From NCBI GenBank assembly GCA_001600415.1, contig BCJX01000006.1, positions 48,828 through 112,827 on the forward strand: a DNA stretch of 64,000 nt, written 5' to 3'. Positions 27,543 to 55,784 of this stretch are shown here, piece after piece (the first letter of the stretch is position 1; each line of letters opens with the position of its first letter). Position numbers and translations under genes: made by a program. Source of the stretch: Pascua guehoae. Lineage: Eukaryota > Basidiomycota > Tremellomycetes > Trichosporonales > Trichosporonaceae. The notes beneath the pieces were generated by a model. The model saw nothing but the letters and a program-made list of their open reading frames with translations. It did no database searches and had not been told where the DNA came from.

Positions 27543-27547
27543 AAGAC

Positions 27548-28886: not shown

Positions 28887-29079
28887 ATGTCGACCGAGAA
28901 GACCCCCACCAAGGCAGACGGCTCGTCCTCATCATCGACGTCCACCGGTGGCAAGTCGCCTGGCAAGAATTTGGCTGGTGAGTTTTCCTCAGATAACCAA
29001 AACAAAGGGTGTCTTGGGCTAATATCCCAGCCCTCGGCTTTGAGCTCATCCTGTCGGAAGACATGTACTGCCACAACGC
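28887..29079 (+). pseudogene. D antisense cargo gene, 5' part
   Basis: First exon from ATG 28887 to 28977 encodes a Ser/Thr/Lys/Gly-rich start (TEKTPTKADGSSSS). A 53-bp GT-AG intron (28978-29030) follows, then 49 bp of exon 2, cut by insertion of E at 29080. The rest is at 48433-49873, and frame and codons join exactly when E and the duplicated target bases are removed. The gene lies on the strand opposite to D gag-pol, between pol and the 3' LTR. Function unknown. Confidence 0.75.
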
Positions 29080-29558
29080 TGTGGGAGTTTGCCTCGCCCA
29101 CGAGTGTAGGGCCTTGCTCTGTCAGTTACTCACTGTCGCTGCCTTCTGGGCCGGTCTCGCTCTCCATCCTGTTCGAGTCTCTATCTGTCGCTGGCTCAAG
29201 TCTCGGTCCGCCTCTGGCTCGAGTCTCGGTCCGCCGCTGGCTTGAGTCTCGGTCCGCCGCTGGCTCGAGTCTCAGCCCGCCACTGGCTCGAGTCTCGGTC
29301 CGCCGCTGGCTCGAGTCTCGGTCCGCCGCTGGCTCAAGTCTCGGTCCGCGACCGGCTCGAGTTTCGGTGTTGTGCGTCTCCGGGCCTCTGTCCGTCTCGG
29401 CCTTGTTTCTCGCTCCGTTTCTTGCTCGTGTCTCGGTGAATGGGTGAGTTCGAGTATCGCTCCACAACCCAAGCCTCAGTTAGGTCGGCTATCATGTTTG
29501 GCACGAGTCTCTGGCAGATACGTCATCGATTCCCGGTGGGCGAGTTATTCCCACCACA
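29080..29558 (-). mobile_element. 3' LTR of element E
   Basis: 479 bp, TGTGGGAG to CCACCACA in plus orientation. Its middle (about 29187-29370) is a 23-bp minisatellite, ctggctcgagtctcggtccg(ccg), with 8 units; the 5' LTR has 9. Confidence 0.9.
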
Positions 29559-30091
29559 GGATCCCCCACGCTCTAGTGGGTCGGTCCCCCGACCTGGCGG
29601 TTAAGTATGAGGAAGCTCCGAGTCTCGGTCCGCCCTGGACTTTTTGCTGCTCGCTTCCTTATCTCGTCCGCCGGCATTCGGACGTCCTTACACTCCCCTG
29701 CTGGGGCTATCCCATGGCTTCGCTCTGCCTCACCCCTAGTCTCGATCGTATTTCTACAACCAGTCACTCGCGTGCTCTCTTGGCCAACCTCCCGCCCTTT
29801 GATCACGCTCGGTAGCTCACTCTCTCAGTCCCGCCACCCCGACTCTTGGTCTATCTTCTGTGATCTAACCCAGATGGCTCAATTTCCTACAGTCTGCCGT
29901 CTTGACTCTCGGTCCACCTTCTGTGCTTCGACCGTTTTGATCCCGCCCACTCGGATTCACAGCCCATCCTCCGGGGCTTGACTGTTTTTGATCCCGCTGT
30001 CCAGATTGCCGGCCCACCACCGCCCGTCCTCCATAGCTCGATTCCCGATGCGTGCCTACCTTCCTGGCCCGACTCCAGGTACGCGTCTGTC

Positions 30092-30347
30092 CTATGTGGC
30101 TAGAGCCTAGGTGCATGCCTGTCCTACATGGCTAGACTCTGGATGCACGTCTGCCCTACATGGCGAGACTCCCGATGCACATCTGCCCTACATGGCTAGA
30201 CTCTGGATGCATGCCTGCCCTACACGGCTAGACTCTGGATGCATGTCTGTCCTACACGGCTAGACTCTCGATGCACGTCCACCCTACATGGCTAGATTCT
30301 GGATGCGCGTCTGCCCTACATGGCTAGACTCTCGATGCACGTCTGCC
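30092..30347. repeat. 32-bp tandem repeat, 8 copies
   Basis: Units of the type ctacatggctagactctgga plus 12 bp begin every 32 bp from 30092 to 30316. The period is not a multiple of three, so it is not selected as coding sequence. No unique spacers are present, so it is not a CRISPR array. Confidence 0.85.
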
Positions 30348-30611
30348 TCGCCTCTCCATGGTCCCCACCGTCCAACCCTCCTTATACCCTTCCTTCCTTC
30401 TTCTCCTTTCTCCCCACTTCCTTCCACCTTATCCCTCCCGTTGCCTTCTTCATCACCCAGCACCTTCTCGGAGGTCTATGCACAATCGGCATCCGCTTCC
30501 AGCCCCCTGGCGTGGCCGATCCTCCACCAGGAGACAACGTGCGGCGCGCTCCTTAGAGGCTAGGCCCAAATCGCGCTCGATCCTCATACCAACACAGGCG
30601 GTCGGCAGGTT

Positions 30612-30871
30612 CCACCTCTCGACACGACCGATCCTCATCCTCAGCATAGACCGTTGGCGCACTCCACCTCTCGACGCGACCACTCTTCATCCCCAGCACA
30701 GACAGTCGGNGCGNTCCACCTCTCGACGCGACCGCTCTTCATTCCCAGCACAGACAGTCGGCGCACTCCACCTCTCGACACAGCCGCTCTTCATCCCCAG
30801 CACAGACAGTCGGCGCGCTCCACCTCTCGACGCGGCCGCTCTTCATTCCCAGCACAGACAGTCGGCGTGCC
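30612..30871. repeat. 52-bp tandem repeat, 5 copies
   Basis: Units starting ccacctctcgacgcgaccgc at 30612, 30664, 30716, 30768 and 30820, with a decayed sixth at 30872. The middle copy holds two N bases (30710, 30714), probably from collapsed repeat reads. Confidence 0.85.
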
Positions 30872-31764
30872 CCGCCTTCTCAACGCGACCTTCCTTCTTT
30901 CCTCCTCTAACACCGCCCTACGCATGTCACCCCGACTCTGCTTATCCTTTTCCTTCTCGCGTGGCCGCCCACACGGTTTCTGTCGCCACCACCTTTGCCT
31001 TATCGCGGAAACTGACCCATCGGGGTGTGCCCGACGCCCCCTCAGCGCTGTGCGCGGGCCACCCTGGTCCGGGCGTAATACCGACTCAGGCCCCGCCCCG
31101 GGAGCGGAGGGCTGTGCTCCTCCTAGAGCTACTCCTCAAAGGCCCCGTGCCTACCTTGCGGGCCCTGACTCTCGATCCTGGCTGATGCCCCGCAGTTACC
31201 AGCGACACTAGGCAACGAGGAGAAGCGCCAGCACAGGCCTGGCACCAGGATCATCCTGGCAGCGGTAGTTGCCACCCATTTCCGTCTCACCGTCCTCTTG
31301 ACTAACCTTGGGGTCTCCTCTCACACTGCCTCTCTTCAAGGTAGAGCATCTGCTCGGCATTGCTAGCAACCATCTCTCCCCTCCTCAGCCGGTATCCGCT
31401 AACTCGATCGCCTCAGTCTCTCCCCCTCCCCTACTTATCACACGAACGCGGGTTGTCCCATCCCCTTTTTCTTCAGCTCCTTTTGTCATGCCCTCGGCAC
31501 TCTGCCCCCTCTTTCATCATGCCCTCTACGCCACTGCCTCCGTCATACGAGTGTGCTCGATTGCCACGCCCATTGTGCGCTTCTCTGGCGCGTTCTGGCT
31601 CCCGCCCCCCCCCTACTCTCACTCCGTCTGCACCGCACCCGCCTTTCTACATAGGGAGGACATTACCCCCCCCTGCTCTTGTCTCTCATGCATGTTCTTC
31701 TCCCTCTGCTCCCCTTTCGCCTCTTGAACACCCCACACGCTCCGTCACTCACTCTCAGCCCACC

Positions 31765-33399
31765 ATGTCCATCAACATCAACCCCGGTCGTCCCTCTCTC
31801 GCGTCCATTATCGGCTACACGGAGGTTCTTGGCAAGGACGCCATCTCCGAGCTACTCCGCCCCTGCCCCGATGCCGTTAACGCCGCCTTCTTCCGGGACC
31901 TGGCCCGCAAACTTGGTCCAGTGGAGGACATGTCTCGGACCGTCAACTGGCATGAACTGCTGGAGCTGTCCTCCCGCGCAGATGCCGAGATTCAGTCGCT
32001 CGATTACAAACAGCCGGCCATTGGCACCAACTTCGTCCTCGAGCTCCGAGACCCAGACTCGAGGGAGCATTTTCTGGCGGCAGTCTTGCATGAGATTTGG
32101 TGGATGCACCACTTCCTTTTCCCTGCCCTAGCCGCCGTGTACCCCCGCTCGACCAGCGACGATGCAGAGTCAGTTGTTCCAGCTTTCTTCTCTGCCACAG
32201 GCTAACACCTTCCTCAGGACTCTGAAGGCGGACATGTGGTACCATGTCTTGGACCGCGCACGCCTCATTTATCCTCCCCCGACTCGCTTGGCCCACTGTT
32301 TTCCCCCGCTGGCCGTGCGGTTCTTCGAAACTCGCACTAAAGTTGCAAATGACTCTCTCGTACGTTGCATTCTGCCCGTCTGCTTTCCCGCTTCTCTCCC
32401 CAGGTTCTGATCCTTCGCAGGTCCTTTCTCAGCTGGCTCGGGAGTCTAGTGCGTGGCCCTCGGTGGAACCTTGGGCTGGTTACCTTCGGGGCCCTTTTCC
32501 AAACTCCTGTACCATCGTCACGCCTCCGCCCACACCGATCGGGTCTGCACTTTTCCCCACCACGCTCCCCATCACCCCCACCAAGCGGCGTCTTCATGAT
32601 GTCGCCGCGGGTCCCCCAGCCGGGCAGGAGGGAAGTGGGCGAGACACTCGGAGCTGGCGCGACCTCTCCCAGGAGGAGCACGATGAGCTTACCAAGAGCT
32701 CGATGGGGATCACGGTTCCCCCCACTGACCCATACGTGAGTTCCATAACCCCGTCTCTACAGCCGTCTGTTCATCCTATTCCTTTTCCAATGCTCATTAG
32801 CTCAGAATGGGGACGCAGGCGCAGGGTACGAGCTGCTCCCCTTCGCCGAAGGCTGCCCGCCCTGTCGCGAGGGTAACTTTAGGTGTTGGGTCCTCAAGAG
32901 CAAGCCAAATGCGACCTGCAAGAAGTGTAAGGGCTCTCACTGGACTCGTTGCTCTTTTTATGACGGCGCAAACGTAGCTCCCCGCAAGGCGCACGTCGCG
33001 GGCTGGTCCCGCCTGCGGGACACATTCCCAGCCACCCACCGCCTAGACAGCCATGCACGCTTTGGCGTTGGGCTCGAGCTCATTCATGCCACTCGTTTCC
33101 TGGCCCGCGGCCCCTCTTACACCCGCGAGTTGGCCGAGCTCGACGTTCCCCGCCCGCGCTTCACCATCGGGGAGGACGGGAAGGACTGGTTTGACATTCG
33201 TGCCGCCAGCGACGCAGCCCTGGACCGAGAGGGAGGGGAGTGGGCTAGTTACGAGCGTCCATCCGCCGTCCTTCGCGCCGAGAATCCCTCTTGGCCTGTC
33301 CCCCTGCTGGCCAAATTCCGTGGGCCTCGCCCCACCACTCATGCAAAATGCGGTGGAGGCGAACACCCTTCTCCCCGGGACCCGAAGCACCAGAAATAG
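31765..33399 (+). CDS. E antisense cargo gene a, Zn2Cys6-like protein
   Basis: Four exons, ATG 31765 to TAG 33399, with introns 32169-32217, 32360-32420 and 32736-32805 (49, 61 and 70 bp, all GT-AG and frame-keeping). The N-terminal half is helical and acidic, with no family I recognise. The last exon encodes a cysteine cluster C-x2-C-x6-C-x10-C-x2-C-x7-C (CPPC...CKKC..., about 32850-32955), which fits the fungal Zn2Cys6 binuclear cluster spacing. Known members of that class bind DNA as regulators. However, here the cluster is not near the N-terminus and lacks the usual Arg/Lys-rich loop, so DNA binding is inference. It is opposite to E gag-pol. The exact acceptor of intron 2 is a choice based on frame. 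Confidence 0.7.
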
Positions 33400-34227
33400 C
33401 TATACCCCGCTGTCTCTCTTCACTCTTGCAGGTCCTGTCTATAGGCTCTCCTGTTCTCTCTTGTTGTCCGTGCCTCTGTACCCCATCATGCATACTGTAT
33501 CTCGTCTCCCTTTCTGCGCGCTTCGACAGCAGCTGGCCCTTCTTCTCTACCTGGTGACACACATTCCGCACCCACCGGAAGATTGGGGCACAGAGGAGAA
33601 AGAGTGACGTCGGGGGCGGCCTCAACGCCTGGAGTATCCCCTTTTTACTTGTGTTGACCCGCACACCACACCAAATAGGCCCAGGGTCTCATCCCTCTAC
33701 TCCCCAGCTCGCCGCCCATCACAGCCGCTTCCTCTTAGTCCTGTCGATCGTCGCACGAGACTCGTAACACCCTTCTTAGGTTGTCTCCTGCTCCTCCTGA
33801 TCCTCGCCTACCCATCACTGTCACTCTATTGACTACCTTTCCAGCTAGGGGATCGCTCGTCCACCCACCCCCATCATGATCGCCTTATTGTCCCACATCC
33901 TTTGGGACCTGATCGCACCCCTCGCTTGCTCCCCTCGCTACACACTTGAGCACGCCCCGACCACGCCTCACCACGCTCTGTCGACTCATTTCTCATCACA
34001 CCCACACCCCTTTGTTTGTTTCCCATGCGACATGTTACCTCCTTTCTCGTCCCACTCGTCTCGTGCGTAGCATAAGACTGGCCTGCTTCTCCATCTCCTA
34101 CTCAGTCCCCATCACCGTTTCGCCTCCTTCTACTTCCCTCCATACTCTCCTTGTCATCCCCGCTCTCCCTTTCTGCTCGCCCTCGCACTCCTTTTACCTA
34201 ATTCTCAACTGTTCTTTTTACTCTACC
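33400..34227. other. Intergenic stretch between cargo genes a and b
   Basis: About 830 bp, C/T-rich, with no convincing ORF. It presumably carries the 3' end of gene a and the promoter of gene b; I see no clear TATA box or other site. Confidence 0.5.
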
Positions 34228-36760
34228 ATGCCTCCCCAGCGAAGTGGCCGTGGTGGCTGCAGTGGTCGGGGAGGAGCCGGCCGAGGCGGTGGTCGAGGAG
34301 GCGGAAATGCAGCCGCCAACCCGCCCAACCCAGCTCTGGCCCCAGCTCCGGCTCCCGCTCCGGCCCCTGCTCCAGCCCCCGCTCCTGCCCCAAAGCCTGT
34401 GAGTCACTCTTCTCTCCTCTCTCCTTCTTGCCTTGATCCTGTCCTGACTGTTCCTTTCCTTAGGGCGACACGCACGTTAGGAGGAAGGGTCATCCCAAGG
34501 GCTCTGCTGTTTGGCTGCCGGAAGGAGACATGACGCCAGAAGAGCTAGACGCCAAACTTCGGGTTAGTCCCCGCCTGCTTTTCCATACACCAGTTCCTTC
34601 TTCTCCCGTTCTACTCCCAATCCTCAAATTGACCCCCTTCAGGAGACATTCCCGGGCCACCAGTTCCTCTCCGGCATGTCGCGTTGTCGGAGGTGCGCGT
34701 CCAAGAAAGTCAGCTGCCCGTTCAATGAAGCGGTTGACCCGGACCATTGCGTCCAATGCCCGGACGATTGCTCGTTCACACCTTCCCGTAATGAGCACAA
34801 GTTGGCCGTGCTCGCGGAGATCTCGGATATCTTGGCGCGGTTGATGGGTGCTGGTGCGGGCGTCTGGGATTCACCAAGTGCGCCGGCATACGCCCAGTTT
34901 ATCGACCATCACATGCAGTTTGTCAAGGCTGCCACCATCGGTTTCGCACCGGCGTTGCTCTGGCGAGCCTACCCCCGTCCTCCGGAAGATTGCCCGTACG
35001 AGCTCGCCGCTTGGGCCGACGTCGCCCGTTTCCCGCCTTGGACACCTGGCGCTCCCCCCTGCACCGGCCAGGGCTACAGTTATCATTTCGCCCCGCCGCC
35101 CTTCACCTACCGCCCCGCCCTGACCCTGCCTGGCACTGGCCCTAATGTCGAGATTGTCGAACTTGGAGGCGAGCGTCACTTCTTCTCTGACCACTTTGGC
35201 TTTACGGAGAAGCTTGACAAGACGGGGATGGATGATGGCAACGACGACAATGACGACCCCATGGAGGGCCACAACACTCCTCGTCGCGAGCTCCATCAAT
35301 GGTTCGAGGCAGTCGAGGGCCCTATGTGGGGCGCCTTCGAGCGAGAGTGGTGGTCTGCCAGGGGTGGATCCGCAGTCTTCCCGGGGCAGGTTCTCGACCC
35401 ACCCGGTCCTGCCGCACATGCCGGGGACGGAGCTGCCGCGACTCCCGGCCCCACCAAAATGCCCGCTGCCGGCACCAACCAGCCCGCCCCCCGTCCTCCG
35501 CCCAAGACCGGCTTCCAGCCCAGCAAGGGCGCGGCCACTGGTGCCACCTCGGGTCTCGGTCCGGGCCTTACTTTGGTCAGTAGCTCGTACTCGGAGGGCA
35601 CGAATGCGTCCTCCCATCTTTATTCGATCAAGGGTGCTGGCCCCTCGGGTGACCATGCTATCGCGGTTATCAATGAAGGAGGCGTCAAGGACTGGGTCAA
35701 TTACGGTGGCTGTTTTGTGCATCTGCCCACGATGAAATCCACGCTGTACCCGCCAGCAGACATCCTCAAGGCCTTTGGTCTTGCATCGATTGAAGAGATA
35801 GGAGGTGACGACCCCTTCATTCAAGCCCTCTTTCCTCGTCCAGTCGACTCAGCTGACCCCGTTCAGCCCACCCAACCCCAGCAACAGCCACCACAGTGGT
35901 CGGCTCAATCTCTGCTAGACCTCTACAATGTTCTTGCGGAAAAGCGCCGTCAGCTCGGAGCCGGGCATCCTGGCAACTCGACTCTCGCTCTGTCGAACTT
36001 TATCCTCCAGCTCCAAGCCATCGACTCTGGCTCCCGGCTCGCCCTCCTAGAGGATCTGCGCCAACAACTTGCTGCTGGAGGAGAGGCAGAGCTTTTGGTC
36101 CGAGACACGGTTTTGGCCCTCACTTCGCCTAACGGTCCTCTCGACTTCTCGGACTCTGTGGCCACGTTCTACTCGGCCATTATGCTGCCCACTTACAACC
36201 TTCCTCGAGAAGGGGCTGGCTGGGTCCACCACCGTTTTTGTGCCGCCGGACACCCTCTCCTGCCCGAAGCTCTCGCCCTGGAGCTCAACGCTCCACTGGC
36301 TCGTCAAGAGGAGGCCAACGCTAAGGCCAAGGCCAAGGCCGAGGCCGAGACTAAAGCCAAAGCTGAGGCCGACGCAAAAGCCAAAGCCGAGGCCGCCGCC
36401 AAAGCCAAAGCCGAGGCTGACGCCAAGACCAAAGCCGAGGCCGAGATCATCAAGGCCAAGGCGGAGGCCGTCAAAGCTAAAGCTGAGGCCGAGGCCGCTA
36501 AGGCTGCGGCTGCCAAAGCTGAGGCTGAAGCTACCAAGGCTAAAGCCGAGGCCGCGAAACGCCGCCGTAAATCGTCCACGTTGTCGCCTGCGCCCCCTGT
36601 CGCGCCTCCCGGGGGTAACACCGCTGCTCAAGTTGCTCCACTTCCAGCTATCCAGCCTCCAGCCAACCAGCCCGCCCATGGGCGCTCTACTCGGGCGCAC
36701 CCCAGCACTCTGCTCGGCCAAGACTCTCTGCCGGGCTATCGTCATGGCCGTCCCCTGTAG
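34228..36760 (+). CDS. E antisense cargo gene b, RGG/Cys-cluster/coiled-coil protein
   Basis: Three exons (34228-34398, 34464-34562, 34643-36760) with GT-AG introns of 65 and 80 bp, giving about 795 residues. The N-terminus is a Gly/Arg-rich RGG-type stretch followed by a Pro-Ala repeat (34332-34396). Next is a cysteine cluster C-x2-C-x6-C-x10-C-x2-C-x3-C (from about 34682, CRRCASKKVSC), close to Zn2Cys6 with a basic loop. A large unrecognised middle domain follows. Near the C-terminus is an Ala/Lys/Glu-rich repeat (36307-36560, KAEAEAK-like), likely a long helix or coiled coil. RGG and basic Cys clusters suggest nucleic-acid binding; this is inference. No stop or frameshift is seen over 2.1 kb in exon 3, which argues for recent function. 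Confidence 0.72.
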
Positions 36761-36997
36761 CATCTCCTCACTTCCTCCTGCTGTATCATACTTCACATAT
36801 CTGTTCATGCTGTATCACCTACTGCCCTTGCCTATGCACTGCAAGTATCCATTTCCGAGTCTTGGCCCGCTTTGATCCCTTGGTTTCTGTCCTCCACGTG
36901 CCTGCCACGTGACTCTGACTCCGTCTTTCATCGCCTCCTTTTCACCCTTGACGCTCGGTGCTCCCCTTTCTCAATCCTTTGCATCATCAACTACCCA

Positions 36998-37798
36998 CTA
37001 CTTGCGGACATACTTGGGCGTACGACGAGCAAATCCGGAGGACGGTCCAGCAACCCCCAGGCGGTGCTCAGGTTTAGCACGGAACCTGCCATTTGGGGTG
37101 AGGTGCGGGATGCGGTGGACCTGGTGCGTCACGTTCCAGCCCTTGCAGAGCAGCATGGTCGCCATACGTTTCTGCTCAGCCTCGGACACATTCTTGAGCT
37201 CGTTATGCATCGCGACTGCGCGTCGGAGGATGTCTTGGACTTTGTGAGTCGGGCTCGTGTTGAGGACCAAGTGGAGCTTGTTGTTGTGCCCAAGGAGGCG
37301 ACTGGCCTGACCTTGCAGGCATGGGTACTTGTTTTCCCACATGTGCAGCTCAAAACGTATCCACGCTACCACGGGTAGCTCTTCTTCGTATCGGTGGATC
37401 GTCTCCTGCTTCTGGCCATTGTAGAACCAGAACGCACCCTTCTCAGCATAGAAGAACCTCTCCTGGCCCCAGATCATCTCAATCCATCATATGACAATGC
37501 AAGGGAATCGCTGCGGACCGAACGTGAAGCCGGACAGGTCGTGCTCCTCTCCGCAGAACCCGCAACTCGTCGTTCTCTGTGCCACGCCCCAAAACGAGTC
37601 TCCCAGCGAGCTGTCCGCCTCGGAGTGGCTGGTGCTGGCGTTGGACGCGTTGTCGGCGACACTCGGTTGGAAGCTGGACTCGGAGTTGGCGTGTGAGAAG
37701 ATGTGCGCCATCGCGTCGACGTCTCTCGACGACTGGTTGGCGGTTGCCATCGTAGCGCCCGTGGTCGGCTCCGTTGTGCTCATATGAATGTCGGTCAT
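36998..37798 (-). pseudogene. E sense-strand extra ORF
   Basis: Same strand as E gag-pol, downstream of integrase. ATG 37798 opens a Ser/Thr-rich start, then a CGFCGEEHDL motif and FPC. A TGA at 37487 interrupts, and the same frame continues to 36998 (MIWGQERFFYAEKGAFWFYNG...), about 266 codons overall. The TGA fits CGA to TGA. Neither half resembles a family I know. Its place after pol suggests an accessory or third ORF. Confidence 0.5.
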
Positions 37799-38212
37799 GC
37801 TTTGATTCTTCCCATCGTCAACCCCTTTTTTCCCTCCGGTTGTCTTTGGGACTCACGCCTTCTCCTTCAAACCCAACTCCCTCAAACGGGTTGTGGTTCT
37901 CCACCGTCATGGTCGCACGCTGCCCTGTCGGCGATTGGATGGTGAGGGCAGAAAGGTCTGGGTTCTGGNCGCTCCAGTCGTTCGTCATCCGAGCTGGACT
38001 TGTGGGGTGTCTCTCCGTTTTCTCAAGTCTCTTTCTTCTCCTTTTATCTCTTTCCCCTCTTCTGTCGGACTCGGTCGAGTCTCTTCCCTCGTTGGTCCAC
38101 NACTCCTCTTTTCTCCCCAATTTCTTAATGGTCCGTCCTTGGACCCCGTAGCACGGGCCTCCTGTATTCCCTTCCTCGTGCACTGTCCTCCCCTGCTTCA
38201 GCCTATGACAGA
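37799..38212. other. Gap between E pol and extra ORF
   Basis: About 410 bp with two N bases (37969, 38101). I see no gene or clear signal. Confidence 0.5.
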
Positions 38213-41200
38213 TCAGAAGCTGCTAGAGTCTCTCAGCCGCCCTTCCTCTTCCTCAAACCTGACCCGTTTCTCGGGCCTCGGCACTACCGACTGGGTGTTT
38301 CCTGCAGACAGGGGAATAACCTGCGTTTCCGGCCTGCTGGCCGCCCGAGGCTCTCCCGTGTCGCCTCCCTGGTTGTCCTGCCTTCTGGTGTAGAACCTAC
38401 ACAGCCTATTGTGGCCGACACTACCCAGCCCTGCGTCCTTGATGGGCGTGCCATCAAGCTCCTGAAGCCTCACGGACCCCTTCTGCCCAAATTTCAGGAT
38501 TTTGTACGGCCCGAGGTATCGGTCCAACCGCTTGGCTCTGTGAGAGTTGTCCTGGGTCGAGTTTCGCACCAGAACCAAGTCACCCAACTTGAACTCTCTA
38601 TTGCCGTGGCGATGCTCGAAATCCTCATTGTGCCGCAGCACAGTCTCTTTCCTTGCCTCCCTGGCCCGCAGGGCTGCAAGAGCTACATCCTCTGGGCGCC
38701 GCTCGAGCTGCCTGAGGCGTGCCTCGAGAAGCTCGGCCGTAGTCATGTTGTCACGCCAGTGCCCGGTCATGTATGTTTCATACTGCGCTTCAACGGGCAG
38801 GATACTCTCCTCACCGTACAGCAGGAAATGCGGAGTGTAGCCTGTAGTGTGCTTGGCCGTTGTCCTGTCCGCCCACAAGGCGAGAGGCAGTAGCCGCCTC
38901 CAGTTGGGCGGCCGAGATCGAGTGAGCTTGAAGAGCAGCTCTTTGTTTGGCCCATTGGCCTCTCTCAATGCCACCATTTGCCGCCGGGTTGTGGGCCGAC
39001 GTCCGAATATACCATACTCCCCACGCTCGGAGTAACGCCTTGAATTCACCTCTGAATTCCGAGCCTCTGTCCATACTGACCTGCCCTACCAGTCCAAACC
39101 TGGCCAGTATATCCTCATAGAAGAACTGGGCGATAGTCTCGGCCCTTCCATCTGGCAGCACCCGCCCTTTGACCCATCCGGTCAAATCATCACGCGCCAG
39201 CACGATCACGTACATTCCGCCNTCCACCCCTTCACCATTGTCCACTCCCATNGTGATGCAGTCGATGCTTACTTTNCCAAACAGCACTGGCACGAGGATG
39301 CTAGTGCNCGGATTCTCATAGAATCGATAGTCGCGNGCTTGACAGTCCGGGCAGCTCTTCNTCCATTCTTTACANGCCGCGCTCATGCCTTGCCAGTAGA
39401 ACCTCTCGGCGACCTTGAAGTAGGTGTACTGGGCACCTTTGTGGCCCGCCTGCTCATGACAGAGATTGAGAATCGATTCTTGCCTGGCCTTATCCACTAC
39501 TACCTCTGTGGGGAGCCGATACCCTTTCCTTCTCCATAACTTGCCCTGCTCGAGGTGACAGTACTTGGCCATCAGCTGCAGCCGCTTGATCTTGCTCTGA
39601 CTCGCGTCGGCTGGCCAGCCCTTGCCTTCCAGAAACTCGCCGACCGCTACCCAGTCCTCGTCGTCCTTGTACAGCTCCGCTTGAAACGGGATGTCATCCA
39701 GGGCTTCAACCTGTGTGGCGCGAGTCTCACGCCCTCCATCAATAGCCTCACAGTAGGCGTCCAGCCACTCCTCGGGATCCGTGTCGTCACTGTCATCTTC
39801 AGCCTTTGGCCGGCGCGACAAACCGTCCGCGATCCTGTGCCTCTCTCCTGGCACATGCTTAAAGACGAAGTCGTTAAGCTTGATGTACCAGCACCACCTA
39901 GCCTCTGCCGCACTCGGCAGGATTGGAGAGTTGATCATTTGCTTGATAGACATGCAGTCCGACTTGAGGATGAACCTAGTGTTGTGCGTGTAGTGGCGGA
40001 CCGCCCTCATCCCGACGTAGATCCCGTACAGCTCCAGCTTCGGTTGACTGTAGCCCCGCTGCACGGCATTGTAGTACATGCTGTAGAACCGGGCCAGGTA
40101 TCGCTTCCCGTCTTCGCCCACTTGTGCTAGTTCCACTCCGCATCCCGTGATGCTGGTGTCAATCGCCACTATGGGCGGGTACTTCTCGACTCTCGAATAG
40201 TCTATCGGCTGTATCCATCCACTCAGTAGCACCCAGCGCTTGATCTCGTCCATGGCCTCGTCATGCTCTATCGTCCAGACGAACAGCGCGCCTCGCGGCG
40301 TCTTGGTCAACAGTACTAGGGGTAGCGCTACCTTCCCGTAGTTCTTGATCCAGTTCCGAGCTACTCCTACTGTCCCCAAAAACCCTCTAACCTCCTTGGT
40401 GTTCTTACACTTCAGCCATTTCTCGATCTTGGCCGTGGCCATCTTAGTGATCTTCCTGCCCTTGGCCGAACAGATGTATCCCACCATTTGCACCTCTGGC
40501 ACACCCAAGTGCACTTTTGCCCCCGAGAAGGTGCCGCCGAATCTCTTCATCTTGTGCAGCACCCTGTTGACTGACAGCGCGTGCTTGTAGACGTAGCGGC
40601 GGATGTCGGTGCCGGGTATCTTCTTGGGTTTGCCATCCGGCCCCAGGTACTGTGTGCGTGGTCCCTTGATGGTGACATCGTCCACGTACACGCACACGAG
40701 CTCCGGCGACTCCTCGGCGAATATGTAGACCATTGCACATTGAAACGCGGCGACGGCGTTGGTCTATCCTTGGGGCATGCGTCGCAACCTTAGAGTGCCG
40801 ATCGGACTTTCAAACGTGGTCAAGTCACGTGAACCCTGGTGTAGTGCCATTTGGTCATAGCCTGCGAAGGTGTCGAGACTCGTGTATATGTGACACCCCG
40901 CCAATTCCTCCGTCATCTCATCCATCAAAGGCGGCACACCCGCGTCCTTGATCGTAACCGAGTTCAACTTCTGCAAGTTGTGCACGATCCTAATCCTCCC
41001 ATCCTTCTTCTCTACCGCGAAGAAACCCAACCGGTAGCTAGACTGTGACCTCTCGTACAGCCCATTCTTCAACTTCTCCTTGAGGAACTTGATGACCTTG
41101 GCGCGCGTCGTTACAGGCAAACGGATGTTCCGATCTTGCCATGGCTCGTGCGATACCACGGGTATCTTGTGGGGAGGTATGTACTCTTCCTTGAACCCTC

Positions 41201-41282
41201 CCTTCTCGTCTTCCGTCCACGCCAATGCCGTCTCGTTTCTGAGGAGGACGACGGCCATCAAGCATTTCTCCTCCTCAGTCAA
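38213..41282 (-). pseudogene. Element E RT, RNase H and integrase
   Basis: Starts in the -1 frame relative to gag-protease, with a 4-nt overlap. RT begins near RLPVTTRAKVIKFLKEKL; the frame has a TAG at 40764 in the MPQG[W]TNA box (TGG to TAG), then continues with the catalytic box VYVDDV (YVDD at 40677-40688, not the YLDD of the other elements). RNase H shows LKSDCMSIKQM and ADGLSRRP. Integrase has HKGAQYTYFKV...CPDCQ, then ARDDL, SMDRGSEF and NGGIERG. A frameshift near 38960 moves the C-terminal part (38213-39049), which ends KRVRFEEEEG without a chromodomain. Several N bases lie at 39222-39375. Confidence 0.82.
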
Positions 41283-44200
41283 AAATCCTCAAACTCGCCT
41301 TTGAAGAGTGCGTCTCGACGCTCCTTCGTCAACCTCTTTCCTTCTGGGATGTCCTCCAGCTTCTTGTAGCTGGTGGTGACCTCTGGCAGGTCATCCCACA
41401 CGTCAGGGGGTGTCGTCAACACCGGCTTGGCCTCCTCTGGCATCGTCGTCGGGACTGGGNGCTTCTTCTTGGCAACNGGCTTGTATGCNCCTGCCACCTC
41501 GTACGACTNCTGCTCNATTCCCGTCCCGAAGTCCAGGACCGTANACACCCCNGTCGTCATGTCCTCCATCACCAGCTCTTCGACCCCCANACCATCTTCA
41601 GGCAGCTGCCGCACCTGGTCCTCAATCTGGTCAGCCAGTCTCTCCGCCATCTCCTGGATGTTCTTCGGCTTGGCTCCCGCCTCCTTCTCCTCCACCGATG
41701 CCAGTGTCTCCCACTCTAGACCGGGACCCGGTCCTTCCTCGTCGTATTCCACGCCGATGACCTTGATGGCTTCCACCCTCGCTCGATAGTCGGGACTCCA
41801 CTCTTCATCCTCTACCTCTTCCACCCATGCCCCTTGCACATGGTAATCGGGACCCTCGCCTTCGGTGTAGTTGATGATTTCCGCGGCGAACCGCCCCATC
41901 TCTGTCAGGCGAGCGCTACCGCTATCCTTGTTGAGCCGCGTCAACTCGGGGCCTTCGGTGGGGAACATGGCGAACTCGGAGGTACCGGCCAGAGTCTGTT
42001 GGCACATGATACGGTTAGGCCCGCTCCAGAACAAGTCCACGCGGTTCGTCAACAGGAACGGCATGCCCAAGTACACCTTCTCCTCATTGAGCATGTCGCT
42101 GACCCAGAAGTAGTGCCGGTTCTCGAGGCTGCCAAAGTCCAGCATGCCCTCGAAGAATCCAGGCAGGCCGACACCCTGTCCGTGAATGCCAGAGACCCGG
42201 AAGCGGACATCGCTCCTTAGGGCCACTCTCAGCTTCTGGAACAGCTTGCGCGGGATCATGTTCAACATAGCGCCGTCGTCCACCATGGCGTGACACTCGA
42301 TCCCGCCCAACCGACAAGGCAGCAGGGCTGTCCGTACTGCCAAAGGAAGGAAAGGGGCGCCGATCCGACCCTCTGGGTTGTAGACGTTGGGGACTAACTT
42401 TGTCCTCCCGTCGCCCGTCTCCTCATAGGCCTCGCTAGCCTCCCAAAGGGGCGGTATGTACCGGGACAGGATTTCGCCCTTGACTTCCTCGGCCTCACAC
42501 TGCAGATCCTCTCCGTACGCCTCAGCGCTAGCCACCTCTCCCTCGGCATCCGCGCTTCCCTGAGCTACCTCCTCTACAGGTACGGGCTTGCCCATGGCCC
42601 TGCGGAGATAACGGGCGAAGAACGGCGACTCGTCGTCATAGGTCATGTCCGTGTTGACCTTCGCGTACTTGCTTCTGCCCGTATCCCCTTTTGCTGCTTC
42701 TGGCGTGACAGGCTTTGCCCCTTGCGTCTTGCTCGCGGGCAGGCTGGCCGCCTTCGGGGAAGGAGCAGAAGCTGGCGGCACCATCTTCACCCCGGCTCTG
42801 GCCCTCCCCGGCAGAGATGGGTTTCCGTTAACGCGAATCACCCCGGGCTGCCCGTCCTTAGTCAAAGGGACTAGCTTGCCACGAACAGGAGGCAGCGCAC
42901 CCTTCGGCACCCCGGTTCCCCTCTTCGGCCGCTCTTTAGCGTAGGGGGTGGTGCGGCTGTCACCAATGCTGGTGGTGCATTTATCCACAGCTGCCACTTC
43001 TGCCTCCGTTTCCCCTCGTCGCGCCTCCGACGCTCGCACCTTTTCCATGAGAAAGGCCATGAGCTCCGCATTCTCATTGCGGCGTGACCTTCGGGCCTCG
43101 ACGCTGGCTTCCCCAGGCAGCTCGTCCCATGCAACAACTGATCCCGAGGCCACCTCGTACTCTCCGTCCCATTCTACCCCCGCCTCGTCCACGTAGTAGT
43201 CCCCCTCCTCCTCATCCTCATACTCGGGACTATACTTGTCCTCGGCCCACACTTCCCCAACGCACGCCTCCTCTGTCTCTTCCTCCCATCCCATCTCTAC
43301 AGCTTCCTGGTACCATTCCGCATTCAGCGCCGCCGCTTCAGCCGTGCGCTGCTTCGCCTCCGCGAGACTCTCAGCAACGCATGCGTGCCGGTTGCCCTGG
43401 GTAGGGTGTCGCCCCACCATTTCCCTGACTCGCGGTCCTCCCGCCCACACGATGGGCCTGCTCTTTCGTCCTGGCACTTCTTCCCCGTACCGGACTATGC
43501 CAAGGTCCAGGACCTCTTGCAGCTTCCGACATTCGCCCACAAAGTGACCCAAGTTCCCACACCAGAAACACTCATTATGACGGAACGTGAAAGGCCTCGG
43601 CCCCGCCGGTTGCTGGCTTCCCCCAGGCAACTGGCCCATCGCCGCCATCTCGGCTTCCGCAGCGGCGTTTTCGATCCGGGGTTTGGTTGGCGCGGGAGCG
43701 GAGGGCCTTGGCCCCGGGGCCCTGGGCACAAACTGCGGCCTTTGGCTGTTCCACGGTGGCCACTGGAACACAGGCCGCGGCCCGGGTCGCGGTGCGTACG
43801 CGATCCCTCCTCCCAGGGAGCTCAAGGAGTAGTAGCTACTCTCTAGGACAGGCGCGACCAACTTTCCTAGTGCGTCCGGAGACTCAATGGCGGCCATGGT
43901 ATACGCCTCGGCATACTCTGTGCTCCTTGGCCCCTTGTGCGCCAGGGTCGTCCAGGCTGTGGACAATGCCTGATGCGCCTTGTGGTTGTCCAGTAACTCG
44001 CTCCTCAAACTCGGCAACCACGCTTTGGCCACCCCGGGCTGCACCTGGTTGAGTCTCACCCAGTGCTCTTGATACTCCCTCTCCACCTCTCTACGTTGGG
44101 GTAGGGCCGCGCTGACGTGCTCCACCTTTAGCTTCTTCATTCCGTCTATTATCTCCTTCATCGTACCCGGCGTTTTGGGTACCCGAGCCCCACTCAGGCC

Positions 44201-46042
44201 TTCGGTGAAGGTAAAAGTCGTCCCGTCCCCACCGATCTGGATCAACTTCTCCCCTTCGATCCTGCTACGATAGCGAGCTAAAGCCTCTTCTCCCCGTCGC
44301 GCCTGGTTACGAAGACTTTGGACCGCTTCGCCCTTCCCCATCCTCAGCTGCACCATCTCATTCTCCGGGGAGAAATACTCCAAGAGCGCTTTCTCTACCT
44401 GCTTCCAGCGAGGGAGGCTCTTCCCATCCCATCCCTCGCTCCTCCACCTACTGTCATTCGCCACTTTCACTTCCTGCATGAGCGAGTGCGAAAAGCTGCT
44501 AAAGTAGCAGCGGTCCACCACCTTGGCCGTGTACTCTTCTGACCTCCGGTACTGCTCGATCAGGAGGGCAAACTCCTCCGTGTACCGCACAACATCTCCC
44601 CGCTCCATTACTCCCTTTGCCAACCGCTGCGCAGTGAGCTCTTCTAAGTCCTTCGCTGTCGACGGCGCCCTCATAGGGTCATAGTATCTCTCTTGTAGCT
44701 CCTCCTGGAATGCCTCCCAACTTCGGACATTCATGGCCTTCATGACCACAGCGAACTGTCGCCTCTTCTCGATGAGCACATATTTGGGGTAGAGACTCAT
44801 CCTCTCCCCTCCCGTCAGGCCGGCTGCATCCGCGGCATCATTGAACCACTCCAAGTGGTCAACCAGAGTGGCGCCATTGAGGTCCCAGACCCTCGCCTTG
44901 TGCCCGCCGAGAGTAGGCATCGAGCGGTATGTCACCTTCTTACTAACCACTTCTTTGCTATCCTCGCTCCGAGTCTTGTCGTCATACTCTCAGGCTGACT
45001 TTTGTGCATATTTGTCATGCTCCTCATGGCGCGGCTGTCGGAGGGCCCACCCAGTCCTCCGACCCTGGCCAGAGTCTCGCTCTTCTACTGCTAGTGCAGT
45101 ATGCGCGGTATAACGCCTAGTCTCTTCCTTTCTCGTCCGAAACCCGACTCGCGGGGTACCGTCAGACTCCTGATCGGTCGGGGCACGAGATCCATAACTT
45201 CCGTCCCTACAGCTTATGGCAGGGGGCAGGCTCCGATACACGGTCCACCGGGCGGCAGCTGTGCCAGCCTCGGCGTGATCGAGCTCCGACGCTAACGTCC
45301 TCGGCTCACGGTCTTCAACAACGGCCACCCCATTGCCAAAGCGGGTGGTAGGGGCCCCGGGAGACACCACAGGAACGTGGGACCGGTCTCCAGCAGAGGG
45401 GTTATCCTCTTCTCTGCCAACGGCTGCGCCAGTGACTAGCACTGCAGCTTGCGCGCCGAGACCCAAGGGCGTACGCTCCTTTGGGTCCTCAAGAGGGGCC
45501 AGGCCATCTCTCTTGGTAGCGGGGTCCTTTGGCATCGAACCGCCGCAGCTCACGTTGCCGTGAGCCCCTCCAGCTTGCTCCGGGCTAGCATTCCTCTCTT
45601 GCTCGTCCTCTCCTCTACCCCTCCGCTCACCACTCACCTCTCTCGCCCCCGTTCCGATGTCCAAGTGCGGCGGCGGGGCCCTGTTCGCGAATCCAGGCGG
45701 CGGTACACTGCCAACCATCGGTTCCGTTGCTGGGTTCATTGACATCCTTGGCTCGTGTTGTGCTAGGTCGGTGTCCTTGCTGTCCTTGGGCAAGGATCGA
45801 GTCGCGAATCCTCTGAGGGCGGTTTCGAGAGTGGCCGGCCGTAATTTCTTCGCTGGTCGCAAAGCAGTTCTCGGTGGTGGGGTCGGAGCAAGCGGTTGCT
45901 CCTGGTAGTGCTTGAGCGGATCGAGGGGTGTCAGAGACCTGGTGAGTAGAGTAATAATCTCCTTTTCTGACTCAAAAGGACGGCCCGCCGTTCTCCTTGC
46001 ATCGTGGTGATGGACCATGGGCCCAGGTTTTTCGCGTGCCAC
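41279..46042 (-). pseudogene. Element E gag-protease polyprotein
   Basis: One frame from ATG 46042 to TGA 41279 (about 1,590 codons), broken only by a TGA at 44990 that fits CGA. The N-terminal 350 residues are low-complexity. The capsid-like region follows 44950, and a CCHC zinc knuckle CFWCGNLGHFVGEC lies near 43530-43572. The protease region contains CHAMVDDGAMLNMIP (about 42265-42295): the usual D-T/S-G is D-D-G here, which may reduce activity or be a family trait. Gag and protease share one frame, unlike the other elements, and the shift is placed before RT instead. Several N bases lie at 41460-41590. Confidence 0.8.
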
Positions 46043-46695
46043 GCCTTGTGGCTTGGGGCCCGTGAAAGTGAAGTCGAGTGGGGGAGGGGTCCATGGCCCC
46101 TCCCAGTCAAACTCACAGACCGCCCGGGTTTGGGGGATGGGATGGGGAAGGGGGGAAACCTGTCATGGGTCGGCTCCAGGGACCGCGCGCCGAGACCCGT
46201 TCCCCGGCCCGCGCGTTGGGACTTTTCAATCCCTTCCTCGCTTGAGTCCCTGACCCTATCCCGACAAGCCCGAAACCAGACGGTCCCAGACCAAGCTGCC
46301 CGACTGCCTCTCACTCCCTCCTCTACCCTCCGTTCGTCGAACTGGAGATGCGCCTCAATTCCCAATTGCAAGGGTAAGGCCAAAGGCAGCACCGATGAGG
46401 TGCTCGTTCTGCCCTGTGCGCGCGACCCGCCTGGGCTCCGACGCCGCCCTTGGTTCTTGGTCCTAACACCGCAGCCCAGCGCCGGCCTCCCGCATCGACG
46501 GGCGACTCTCGCCCCTGGTGGCCCGACACTTTCAGCTCCACTTGTTGGGCCTGGCCGACTCGCGGTATTGGCGACTGCAGACTTGCAGGGGATGCAGTTG
46601 TCGCGCCCCTGCAGGCCTGCATGGGACGCAGTTGTCTGGGCCGCTGCCCCGTCTTGCCGCCCTCGCTCTGGGGCTTTCCCGGCCCCGCTCCTTTC
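46043..46695 (-). other. E leader, part 1
   Basis: Untranslated leader upstream of the gag ATG on the minus strand, cut by the solo B LTR. A 256-codon frame (45931-46701) crosses it but is not in the gag frame and ends at the LTR junction, so I do not call it a gene. Confidence 0.5.
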
Positions 46696-47176
46696 TGTCA
46701 CGAGCCGAGGGGGACGCGGAAGGACAGAAGGACGGAGCGGAGACGGAGGTGGCGCCGCGGAGGTGTCGGAGGGAGCAAGTGCCGAGGCAACTGGTTGTCG
46801 AGACTAGACTTGTAGTTGCATGGCTTGGAGATACAAACTACGGATGGCGCTGAACTAAGTACCCTAGCGAGCGTACGAGCAGGAGCTGCGCGGGGGATAC
46901 GGAGTTAGGCCTGGTCTACAAGCGTGGCGCTCTGGGTCGGCGGTAGAGCCTCTAGTAGTAGCGCCGACATGCACGGGCGACAGTACGGCGTGTGTGCTTC
47001 GCGAGGCATCGTGAAGCGTGTATTGTGTGCTGTTAAGGCGACGTGCATGATTTCTTGTCGCTTGTTGTCTCGAGTGGCGAACCGAACCGTGCGGGTGGCG
47101 ATCGTGACGTCACGTGATTGTCGGTCACGTGATTTCAACACCGCGTAGAAACGACTAAGTCGTCCAGATCGTGACA
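46696..47176 (-). mobile_element. Solo LTR of B family, shortened
   Basis: 481 bp with TGTCACGAG and TCGTGACA ends and TSD CTTTC (46691-46695 and 47177-47181). Compared with other B LTRs it lacks about 140 bp near its start. It sits in the E leader and is thus the youngest visible event of the nest. Confidence 0.9.
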
Positions 47177-47181
47177 CTTTC

Positions 47182-47925
47182 CAGCCGCCACCGGCGGGAA
47201 GTGGTTACCCTCCCTTGTGTGCCACCATGCGGTCGCCATTTGGCAACCGCAGGCCTACACGGGACGCAGCTGTCGCGGTCCTCGACCTTCGCCCCATCCC
47301 GGGGTGGCAGGGCCTCGCCGGTCCCGAGTCTCGCCCCCTGAACCCTGGGTGGTACAGCTCGTACCTGCCAATGCTCTTGTGCGCGCCCCTCGGCCTCGCG
47401 CGCCCCAGAGCGGATCGCGATCAGGCGAGCGCACTTGTCCTTGTGCCCATCGCGGAGTCTTGCGCCTCTGCTCGCCCGGTCCGCAGGCTTTGAGGTCCTC
47501 CCGATCGTATTCACTCTCCGCTGGGTGCGTGGCTGCCTCGTCGTCCCAGCCGCAGCTCGGGTGCTCGAGCTGAACTCGGCGGTGTCCACCCGGTCCACCT
47601 TCCCGGCACTGACAGGTGGTCGAAGGTCGGGAACGGACGAACACTGCGTCTCGCGGCGGCCCTGTGTCGGCCTTCTGAGTCTCGCCCCTTCTCGAGGGGC
47701 AGCACCACGCTTGCCCTCAAGTGTCAGTTTTGTAAAGAGGGCAGCGCCGCGCTTGCCCTCAAGTCTCGGTTTTGTAGAGAGGGCAGCGCCGCGCTCGCCC
47801 TGGAGTCACGGTCTCGTCCCTATGATGCATGGCCGCGCCGCACAGATCCTCATGATTCATCACCCGCTTTCCCAGTGGGCGCGACTTTTCGCTTCGAGAG
47901 CAAGCCCCATAATGGGCTCCAAATT
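47182..47925 (-). other. E leader, part 2, with primer site and 42-bp repeat
   Basis: On the minus strand the LTR is followed by AATTTGGAGCCCATTATGGG. The TGGAGCCC... stretch begins with TGG close to the LTR end, as a tRNA primer site would; the tRNA would end GGGCTCCA, and I cannot name it. A three-unit 42-bp tandem repeat (47694-47820) lies inside. I find no LTR segment complementary to this site, in contrast to the other families. Confidence 0.55.
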
Positions 47926-48428
47926 TGTGGGAGTTTTGCCTTGCCCACGAGTGTAGGGCCTTGCTCTGTCAGTTACTCACTGTTGCCGCCTTCTGGGCCG
48001 GTCTCACTCTCCATCCTGTTCGAGTCTCTATCTGTCGCTGGCTCGAGTCTCGGCCCGCTGCTGGCTCAAGTCTCGGTCCGCCTCTGGCTCGAGTCTCGGT
48101 CCGCCGCTGGCTCGAGTCTCGGTCCGCCGCTGGCTCGAGTCTCGGCCCGCTGCTGGCTCGAGTCTCGGTCCACTGCTGGCTCGAGTCTCGGCCCGCTGCT
48201 GGCTCGAGTCTCGGTCCACTGCTGGCTCAAGTCTCGGTGTTGTGCGTCTCCGGGCCTCTGTCCGTCTCGGCCTCGTTTCTCGCTCCGTTTCTTGCTCGTG
48301 TCTTGGTGAATGGGTGAGTTCGAGTATCGCTCCGCAACCCAAGCCTCGGTTAGGTCGGCTATCATGTTTGGCACGAGTCTCTGGCAGATACATCATCCAT
48401 TCCCGGTGGGCGAGTTATTCCCACCACA
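47926..48428 (-). mobile_element. 5' LTR of element E
   Basis: 503 bp with the same ends as the 3' LTR. It contains nine units of the 23-bp minisatellite (about 48035-48240); one extra unit explains nearly all of the length difference. Confidence 0.9.
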
Positions 48429-48432
48429 ACGC

Positions 48433-49873
48433 CAAGAAGGTCCCCCGTGTCCAGGATGAGTCATCCGAGTTTGGCAAGGATATGGATTTCCTCGGCCTTG
48501 TCAGCCCCGAGGGCACCATTGTCGAGGGTCTCGAGCCCTTCATGGAATGCGTCTTTGGTGTGCTGTGTGTCGGTGGTACACTCATGGAGAACGACCAAGA
48601 GCTCTGTGACCTCGAGCATCAGGCCGCCCGTGCCATCGCCCTCATCTACCAGCACCTGTACACTTCGGGTCTGAAGAGCCTGCGTGAAGTGGAAATTGAG
48701 GCCGGTGCGCATCTCGAGTTTGCCGATCGTCTGTCCCTGGCACTCGACATCCTTGGTAAGTTTCGTTTTCCTCAGTTACCGGATTTTTCTCTCAGCTTGG
48801 GCTAATTTAATTTCAGAGAAGGAGTGCCCGAATTTCTGCAGGAAGAGCAAAGCCATCCCCTCGGACACCCCTGCCCCGAAGCCCAAGTCGTCCATCGTCG
48901 TCGTCGAGACGGTCGACCAGAGTGCCCTCGCTAGCTGTCGCCATTCGTCATCTGCGAAGGGCAAGATCACCTCGCCGCCGCCCAAGTCAAAGGGCAAGCG
49001 CGTCATTCGTGTCCCAGACTCCGACTCGGAGCCGGAGACTCCCACTAAGAAGTCGCGTAAGGCTGGCCACTCGTCCGACATCTTTGCCATCCCCGACGTG
49101 CCCACCCCACGCAATTCGGCCAAGAAGTCGTCCGCCAAGGCCGGCAGTTCGTCTGCTGTTGCTGGTGGTTCGTCCCGTCGTGCTGCGTCGCCCACTCTGT
49201 CGTCGGTGCTGTCGACCACTACCACTGTGTCGCGCATTCGCGACATCAACGACCTCAACCCCGCGGAGCACAAGTTCCTCGATGACCACCTTGACAAGCT
49301 CAGTCTGACCGGCTTGGATCGTCACGAGGCCGCGAAGAAGATGTTTGTCGGCTTCAACAAGAAGCGTATCGCAGCCGGCGCCAAGTACATCCGCAACGAG
49401 TCACTGTCTAATGTCAAGAACGTTAGCGAGAACGAGTTCAAGGAGCTCCTGGAGGAGGTGCAGCAGATTCGCCGTGGTCGTCCCTTGAAGACTGATGATG
49501 CAGCGGCGTGGCTCGTAAGTCTTTTTTCCTAAGTTAGGTGCTGATACCATTTTCTTAGGACATTTATCATCGCTACGCTCTCGAGGGCATCTCCGTCATC
49601 GACTTCCATGAACCTAGCCCCAAGTGCAAGGCGTCGAACATGCCCATCTGCTTCCGCCGCACGGACAAGCGCTCGCACAAATGTGACCGTTGCGAGGCGA
49701 TGACGTCCGCCCATGGTGTCAGCTGCTTCCCTCACTCGACTCCGCGTGACCGTGTCAAGAACGTGCTCACCCAGTTTTATTCGGCGGCCAAGGCAACCGT
49801 GGGCACGGACACGCTTCGCGCTGAGTACCAGCACATGTTTGACGAGGGCATCACCTCGCTTGCGCAGCTGTGA
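48433..49873 (+). pseudogene. D antisense cargo gene, 3' part
   Basis: Continues exon 2 after E. Introns at 48756-48816 and 49515-49558 (61 and 44 bp, GT-AG) keep the frame to TGA 49871-49873. With the 5' part the product would be about 491 residues. A helical N-terminal domain is followed by a Ser/Pro/Lys-rich middle (about 48840-49220). Near the C-terminus is a Cys cluster C-x7-C-x10-C-x2-C-x9-C (about 49621-49725, KCDRCEAM), which resembles the clusters in E genes a and b minus the first Cys. No stop or frameshift occurs in these exons, so the gene was probably functional until E inserted. Confidence 0.75.
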
Positions 49874-53706: not shown

Positions 53707-54392
53707 TCACACCTTCTTGGTACGTACNTNNACTGGCACTGTNGGAAACTCAATGCGTCCATGTCCAAAGTCTATNGCTAGCTTGGCCTTCTGCATCCAA
53801 TCCATCCCCAGTACGATGTCAACCTCAGGAATGTAGGTGACGTCAAGGTCTAACTCGAAGTTAGGGTAATCACCGTGGAACTTAGCAAAAGTCTCTATGT
53901 GACCGTCGGTGAAAGTGGTGGTGCCATCAAACATGAACACCGTCTCTGGGACAGCGTNCTTCTTGACCTTGGCTGGGTCGAATGCCTTGGAGGCCGTTGA
54001 GATGTACTGGCCGTCGGCGCCAGTGTCGAGCAAGATACGAACCGGGGTGTCGTTTACGTGGGCTTTGATAATCGATTGGCCTTGGAAGAACGGGGCGTGG
54101 AGAGCCTTGTTTTTGTGGTTTTCATTGTATACCATTGTTGAGTTGGGAATTTCTTGGGGAACCGGGCCGATGTGTGAGGGTAGTTCTGAGCGTAAGCTCC
54201 TTCCATCCCTCTCTACATAGAAGGAGTGCTTACTTTTGAAGGACCGAATGCGCTTCCATTCTGGGAAGGCATTGGTCGCGTGGATGAGGAACGACTCGAC
54301 ATGCTTGAACTCGCGCCTGTCGAAGAAGGCATAAGGGTCGGGTTGGGTCGAGTCGTTGTCTTCATAGGGCAGTCAGCTGAGCCATGCCCTGG
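53707..54392 (-). pseudogene. Element D protease
   Basis: The frame is -1 relative to gag. The retropepsin motif LLDTGADGQYIS is near 54030, and the second box IVLGMDWMQKA near 53790-53820. The region between the broken gag zinc knuckle (54393) and ATG 54135 is the gag-protease junction. Several N bases occur at 53729-53776. Confidence 0.8.
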
Positions 54393-55782: not shown

Positions 55783-55784
55783 TC

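Follow-up and report, generated by a model that had tools for sequence, protein, structure and literature searches.

Antisense, intron-bearing genes between pol and the 3' LTR in two nested Ty3/gypsy retrotransposons of Pascua guehoae

An element that is copied through RNA is expected to lose introns from the genes on its sense strand. The question raised by a stretch of 64,000 nucleotides from the fungus Pascua guehoae (contig BCJX01000006.1, C6:48828-112827; hereafter the window) is therefore how genes with two or three introns each come to lie within two of its long terminal repeat (LTR) retrotransposons, D and E. The genome comprises 33.6 Mb in 28 contigs, and positions given without a contig are those of the window. 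We consider it probable that E, and by its layout D, is a Ty3/gypsy element with antisense, spliced accessory regulator genes between pol and the 3' LTR, the expression and function of these genes being predicted.

LTR pairs and their flanks revealed nested Ty3/gypsy elements: E lies in D, and D in element C (LTRs at 14668-15252 and 58524-59108, with no duplicated flank recognised), while element B adjoins the integrase of C. D occupies 27547-56654 on the minus strand with AAGAC on both sides. E sits in exon 2 of the D gene between short duplicated flanks (of 4 bp, should the LTR terminate in CA), and its LTRs (29080-29558 and 47926-48428) are 90% identical. As in chromoviruses, D possesses a Ty3-type reverse transcriptase (RT), RNase H, an integrase and a C-terminal chromodomain (Chromo, 33.0 bits, cut-off 25.1). 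The pol of E contains RNase H and integrase H2C2 domains above the cut-off and an RT fragment with 24.0 bits, below the cut-off of 29.6; no rve core was matched, in a stretch with several N, and no chromodomain match was given by Pfam. Where the two pol products can be aligned, 78 of 322 residues (24%) are identical. By its gag, RT, RNase H, integrase, LTRs and duplicated flanks, E is classified as a Ty3/gypsy retrotransposon of another lineage than D.

An earlier note on this DNA had described one antisense gene in D and two in E, located between pol and the 3' LTR, with 2-3 short introns each and long open exons beside a damaged gag-pol, in elements differing in RT type and LTRs. LTR pairs, open reading frames (ORFs) and gene models agree with this description. 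The D gene spans 28887-49873 on the plus strand, antisense to gag-pol, and with E removed and the flanks joined it reads through 491 codons with no stop in four exons. Both genes of E are also on the plus strand, antisense to its gag-pol: E1 (484 amino acids) has four exons and three introns, and E2 (795 amino acids) has three exons and two introns. All eight introns, including the three of the D gene, are of the GT-AG type and 44-80 nt in length, and in six of them a CTRAY branch-like motif lies 12-20 nt from the end. In the gag-pol of D two in-frame stops separate the ORFs 54372-53707, 53706-51841 and 51840-50128; in that of E the ORFs are separated by in-frame stops and shifts of frame, some of which could be natural. 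Since the five introns of E are in place and E lies with duplicated flanks inside an exon of D, they have passed through an insertion event.

With E in D in C, and B beside the integrase of C, the layout might be an accident of nesting, with host genes on the plus strand, or a further mobile element, caught between retrotransposons. In three other elements of the window the pol ORFs run to 9498 (+), 24178 (+) and 15379 (-), and an LTR or LTR-like repeat (9644-10110, 24297-24925 and 14668-15252) follows 119-146 bases past pol, so the antisense layout is not general in the window. For E, chance placement is refuted by the copies, and overall it is most improbable. E1 and E2 were found paired at at least eight places each on five contigs, downstream of pol and antisense to it; these counts are lower bounds, some places being in two pieces owing to insertions. 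In all eight found copies that retain the region both genes are present with order and strand unchanged, and the same pair recurs in a subfamily on contig C20. Of the closely related pol copies (87% or more), eleven extend to the pol end, and eight of these have both genes; two further pol pieces (C16, C12) stop inside pol. Among the E copies found in the genome none was seen with an intact pol-to-LTR region but without E1 and E2, a check that the earlier note had proposed.

The splice-site dinucleotides GT and AG are kept in 24 of 24 E1 introns and 16 of 16 E2 introns over the eight copies (40 of 40 in total). The start codon of E1 is kept in seven of seven copies, the eighth beginning at a contig end, and that of E2 in eight of eight. 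Ratios of nonsynonymous to synonymous substitution rates (dN/dS) in 28 pairs for each gene lay at 0.23-0.53 for E1 and 0.19-0.49 for E2, and are thus not neutral; neutral values had been named in the earlier note as a refuting outcome. Since context-dependent decay could mimic low values, each substitution was reassigned at random, in 40 permutations per pair, to sites sharing its trinucleotide context. The median observed/expected ratios of nonsynonymous to synonymous changes were 0.46 (E1) and 0.44 (E2), compared with 0.36-0.40 in four segments of gag-pol and 1.42-1.55 in wrong-frame controls; they carry a small bias towards low values, as stops are nonsynonymous in the null and stop-bearing codons are omitted from the observed counts. 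Bias in base composition or CpG as the cause of the low dN/dS is opposed by both the permutation and the wrong-frame controls. Judged from these comparisons, E1 and E2 are under purifying selection at the protein level, close to the constraint on gag-pol; this applies to E only.

Non-coding antisense transcripts of LTR elements have been discussed as triggers of double-stranded or small RNA and in antisense interference (excerpt of PMC7264820), and the antisense stretch might likewise act as RNA and not as protein. The codon-level selection, the conserved splice sites and the invariant cysteines described below argue for a translated product, which makes an RNA role very improbable.

Alternatively, the genes may be passengers, that is, host genes captured by D and E which hitch-hike without aiding the element. 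In keeping with this, Pfam gave no family above the cut-off in the products of the D gene, E1 or E2, and the D gene is single-copy with a G+C content at third codon positions (GC3) of 0.756 versus 0.563 in D pol; the higher GC3 may mean that the D gene is of different origin. The constraint on E1 and E2, nearly that of gag-pol, speaks against passengers, as does their being common to a subfamily at about 67% pol identity. No host parent gene was found among the matches listed in a protein search of the genome, which took as queries exon 4 of E1, exon 3 of E2 and, for D, the right part of exon 2 together with exons 3 and 4: host capture was rejected for E, whose two queries gave E-type copies and relatives, a weak match on contig C17 (E-value 0.009) and a K/A/E-rich match on contig C1. 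Passengers are improbable as a general explanation and already unlikely for E, and "cargo", as the genes had been called, is perhaps a misnomer: accessory element genes fit the pattern better.

The association is old in E. Protein searches revealed distant relatives of E2 (37-42%) at four places and of E1 (28-30%) at three. On contig C20 a pol (+, about 67% DNA identity), the sense ORF E3 (+), E2 (-) and E1 (-) lie within 10 kb in the same order as in the window. When the E1 proteins of C20 and the window are aligned, 98 of 417 residues (23.5%) are identical; the E1 of C20 has introns at residues 80, 134, 184 and 287 (phases 0, 2, 0 and 0) versus 134, 182 and 287 (phases 2, 0 and 0) in the window; the second shared intron (182 versus 184) is some 16 columns apart in the MAFFT alignment, in a poorly aligned stretch. 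The exon of E2 with the cysteine cluster follows a phase-0 intron in the window and an AG at the same place in C20. As position and phase of E1 introns are common to subfamilies so diverged, the introns have very probably been carried, in antisense, through many copying cycles, and the lack of introns in E3, a sense ORF of the same region, would be expected if introns can be kept on the antisense strand alone. In pairwise distances, the 3' part of pol correlates with both E1 (Mantel r 0.84, p 0.004) and the 5' half of E2 (r 0.82, p 0.0025). A repeated or ancient association had been suggested in the earlier note from the shared layout; it holds for E by the eight copies and the C20 subfamily, and the single copy of D gives no such support. 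The further suggestion, that introns would survive by antisense placement, agrees with E, in which the genes are antisense, with introns preserved, in every copy found that keeps the region.

Six cysteines are invariant wherever covered in the E1 and E2 alignments of three subfamilies, the first being uncovered in one truncated row of each. Their overall spacing is CX2CX6CX8-10CX2CX3-7C, with CX2CX6CX10CX2CX7C in the E1 and CX2CX6CX10CX2CX3C in the E2 of the window. PF00172 gave matches below its gathering score of 21 bits in two of eight E1 members (L064, 18.7 bits; L065, 17.1 bits), and for this reason the proteins are called Zn2Cys6-like and not members of Zn2Cys6. In profile searches of the PDB the second-ranked structures were Leu3 (E-value 0.81) and GAL4 (E-value 0.82), neither significant. 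E1 and E2 could instead be structural or replication proteins, for example in RNA binding or packaging, a reading that overlaps the accessory-gene part of ours and is favoured by the RGG-rich start and K/A/E-rich stretch of E2 and by structure models that do not settle the fold. The Zn2Cys6-like spacing, the two subthreshold PF00172 matches and the rank of Leu3 and GAL4 point to DNA-binding regulators, and a structural role seems doubtful to us. On contig C17 an open frame (L067, C17:609851-610450) contains a cysteine cluster like that of E1 (42% over 45 amino acids, the E-value being that of the weak match above); C17 is without listed E matches in the E1, E2 and pol searches, and L067 is a possible host relative.

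If E1 and E2 are accessory regulators of their element, a promoter between the E 3' LTR and E1 would drive an antisense transcript, from which the host spliceosome would remove the short introns before export of the mRNA. In the full-length sense RNA, the template for reverse transcription, the introns would be present solely as reverse complements, and because these are not spliced out the introns would persist through every copying cycle. With their invariant six-cysteine cluster, E1 and E2 would be Zn2Cys6-like nuclear DNA-binding proteins regulating the transcription, targeting or silencing of their own element, in a mode like that of hbz of human T-cell leukemia virus (HTLV) or of the plant aORF-3R genes. 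Motifs of the CGG type are of the kind bound by Zn2Cys6 proteins, and candidate sites are the CGG-containing 23-nt repeats of the LTRs. CGGTCCG occurs 21 times in the window versus 9.1 expected, with 12 of the 21 within three E-type LTRs; in the 23-nt repeats it is seen at 29204-29348, 48074-48126 and 63910-63985. Tandem repeats of 32 and 52 nt lie between the E 3' LTR and E1 (30027-30379 and 30589-30877).

For D the support is the quality of the predicted gene model only. No second copy of the D gene was found in the genome by DNA search or by protein search with exon 2 (right part), exon 3 and exon 4, and there is only one full D body. Contig C26 has a 5' part of D pol, which stops at an E LTR close to the contig end. 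The D LTR has 16 other matches in the genome, of which six were examined with their flanks: four are an LTR alone and two have a leader piece of 95 or 315 bases (the remaining ten matches are shorter).

A bolder scheme would unite the D gene, E1 and E2 in one ancient Zn-cluster regulator family of LTR retrotransposons, spread between chromovirus and non-chromovirus lineages, antisense since only that strand keeps introns, and binding CGG sites in the LTRs for an hbz-like control. Hints of a single family are the phase-0 intron 14-22 residues ahead of the cysteine cluster in each of the three genes, the CGGTCCG excess and the profile scores, which are E 0.0011 between the cluster regions of E1 and E2, with an hhalign probability of only 20.9%, and E 0.068 between E1 and D, with a probability of 0.8%. 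BLASTP between the D and E gene products gave nothing. One ancestral family in place of two acquisitions is suggestive only, and the scheme in full is unlikely.

Several results weigh against accessory regulator genes in E and D. Three of the eleven pol copies reaching the pol end (C26:87499, C4:586430 and C12:434313) are without E1 and E2. They resemble E as far as window positions 37452, 36749 (in the final bases of E2) and 37773, respectively; a repeat like 9644-10110 (LTR-like, of another family) lies at the break in two of the three, and 4 to 6 kb past the break were examined; as candidates for cargo-free E copies they were rejected, the similarity stopping at or before the end of E2 and at different places. 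For E1 and E2 alike, one or more of the 40 permutations fell as low as the observed value in 4 of the 28 pairs. In-frame stops occur in E1 in three of eight copies and in E2 in five of eight, along with frame-changing indels and insertions, so that most copies are unable to make both proteins now. The PF00172 gathering score was reached by no member, and the window E1 and E2 are without any Zn_clus match. The AlphaFold models are of low confidence (mean predicted local distance difference test scores 47 and 51), and fold searches, uninformative with models of this quality, yielded nothing significant, nor any Zn2Cys6 structure in the matches listed. The cysteine cluster of D has five alignable cysteines, not six, and D is assigned to the same kind of element as E by layout alone, the conservation evidence coming from E. 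Against the 5' part of pol, for which copy C3b is missing, the Mantel tests of E1 and E2 distances are not significant (p 0.13 and 0.14); much of the co-inheritance signal therefore comes from this one divergent copy.

Copy C3b (L017/L026) is diverged from the other copies by 19-23% in E1 and the 5' half of E2, 8-12% in the 3' part of pol and 7-8% in E3, a pattern that could mean that the antisense genes change faster or have recombined. The window E2 is mosaic: at 35950-36550 (exon 3) its identity is 0.87-0.92 to C3b and 0.73-0.84 to the other six copies, and the flanks show the reverse. On this pattern it is taken as recombination between subfamilies inside the antisense gene. E3, seen at 37001-37852 and at L065 4007-4813, possesses a small cysteine motif, and downstream of this beginning it matches other E copies at 91-96% identity and the C20 subfamily at 42%. 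Contig C4 (L066) has relatives of E2 and E1 on one strand, with a pol 17 kb away that is not shown to belong to them. The LTRs of E are more diverged than those of D although E is nested in D, and a change in repeat number or recombinant LTRs may lie behind this. An LTR-like piece of the B family lies inside E at 46710-47177, between gag and the 5' LTR, and similar pieces adjoin E pol at three other loci (L054, L056, L060). The features of D and E are collected in Table 1.

Table 1. Positions of the D and E features within the window
Feature	Positions	Strand	Remarks
D 3' LTR	27547..28418	-	97.7% identical to 55784-56654
D antisense gene, exon 1	28887..28977	+	
D antisense gene, exon 2, left part, cut by E	29031..29079	+	
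E 3' LTR, 23-nt tandem repeats	29080..29562	-	LTR pair
Region from E 3' LTR to E1, 32-nt and 52-nt tandem repeats	29563..31764	+	candidate place of antisense promoter
E1 exon 1	31765..32168	+	model; 8 copies
E1 exon 2	32218..32359	+	model; 8 copies
E1 exon 3	32421..32735	+	model; 8 copies
E1 exon 4, Zn2Cys6-like cluster	32806..33399	+	model; 8 copies
E2 exon 1, RGG-rich	34228..34398	+	model; 8 copies
E2 exon 2	34464..34562	+	model; 8 copies
E2 exon 3, Zn2Cys6-like cluster, K/A/E-rich stretch near its end	34643..36760	+	model; 8 copies
E3, intronless sense ORF between pol and E2, one in-frame stop	37001..37852	-	relatives in E copies and C20 subfamily
E gag-pol region, damaged: RT fragment, RNase H, integrase H2C2, CCHC-type motif by eye	38213..46162	-	
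E 5' LTR, 23-nt tandem repeats	47926..48428	-	LTR pair
D antisense gene, exon 2, right part	48433..48755	+	
D antisense gene, exon 3	48817..49514	+	
D antisense gene, exon 4, cysteine cluster	49559..49873	+	
D RT/RNase H/integrase/chromodomain region and upstream ORF, in-frame stops	50128..54372	-	
D 5' LTR	55784..56654	-	LTR pair and flank AAGAC

Antisense, intron-bearing genes with a cysteine cluster provide a search signature for other genomes, in which they are easily misannotated as host genes, and the role of antisense accessory genes for LTR elements becomes testable in culturable fungi. Among the open-licence papers listed, titles and the beginnings of abstracts showed no fungal LTR element with antisense genes that bear introns, which is weak evidence of absence; neither "antisense" nor "additional ORF" occurs in PMC2864245 or PMC3411680.

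Among known systems, the fungal Zn2Cys6 (PF00172) factors GAL4 and Leu3 are alike in six-cysteine spacing, E1 and E2 being below the Pfam gathering score and without a Pfam family in the rest of their length. Boty has ascomycete hosts and an antisense gene, brtn, for which Zhao et al. 2011 is reportedly the work cited. The earlier note knew of no fungal system like that of D and E, a claim that fails on brtn: in Botrytis cinerea and Sclerotinia sclerotiorum this antisense gene lies between pol and the 3' LTR, as in D and E (excerpt of PMC7264820; compared by description only), and it is mentioned in connection with BcGypsy1 (excerpt of PMC8365987).

The plant Ty3/gypsy aORF-3R genes (Grande gene23, RIRE2, Retand TRP28, PvRetro13) are suspected nuclear or DNA-binding regulators according to excerpts of PMC7264820 and PMC11963269. 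E1 and E2 share their placement between pol and the 3' LTR, their antisense strand, their presence in most copies and a conservation about like that of gag-pol; the D gene shares location and strand. In Retand the antisense TRP28 ORFs have predicted DNA binding, and about half of the elements have tandem repeats in the same region, like the 32-nt and 52-nt repeats of E (excerpts of PMC11963269). E differs in having two genes per element with conserved introns, the likeness being one of description, and the word "intron" is absent from the main text of both PMC7264820 and PMC11963269. HTLV-1 hbz, also at the 3' end of an LTR element, is antisense and spliced, and its protein suppresses Tax transcription (excerpt of PMC9822710); it differs in being a single gene, transcribed from the 3' LTR, for a basic leucine zipper (bZIP) factor, and no homology is claimed. 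The antisense accessory gene is thus a known kind, and what is new here is that the spliceosomal introns are conserved, that there is a set of two genes, and that two lineages within one fungus have such genes.

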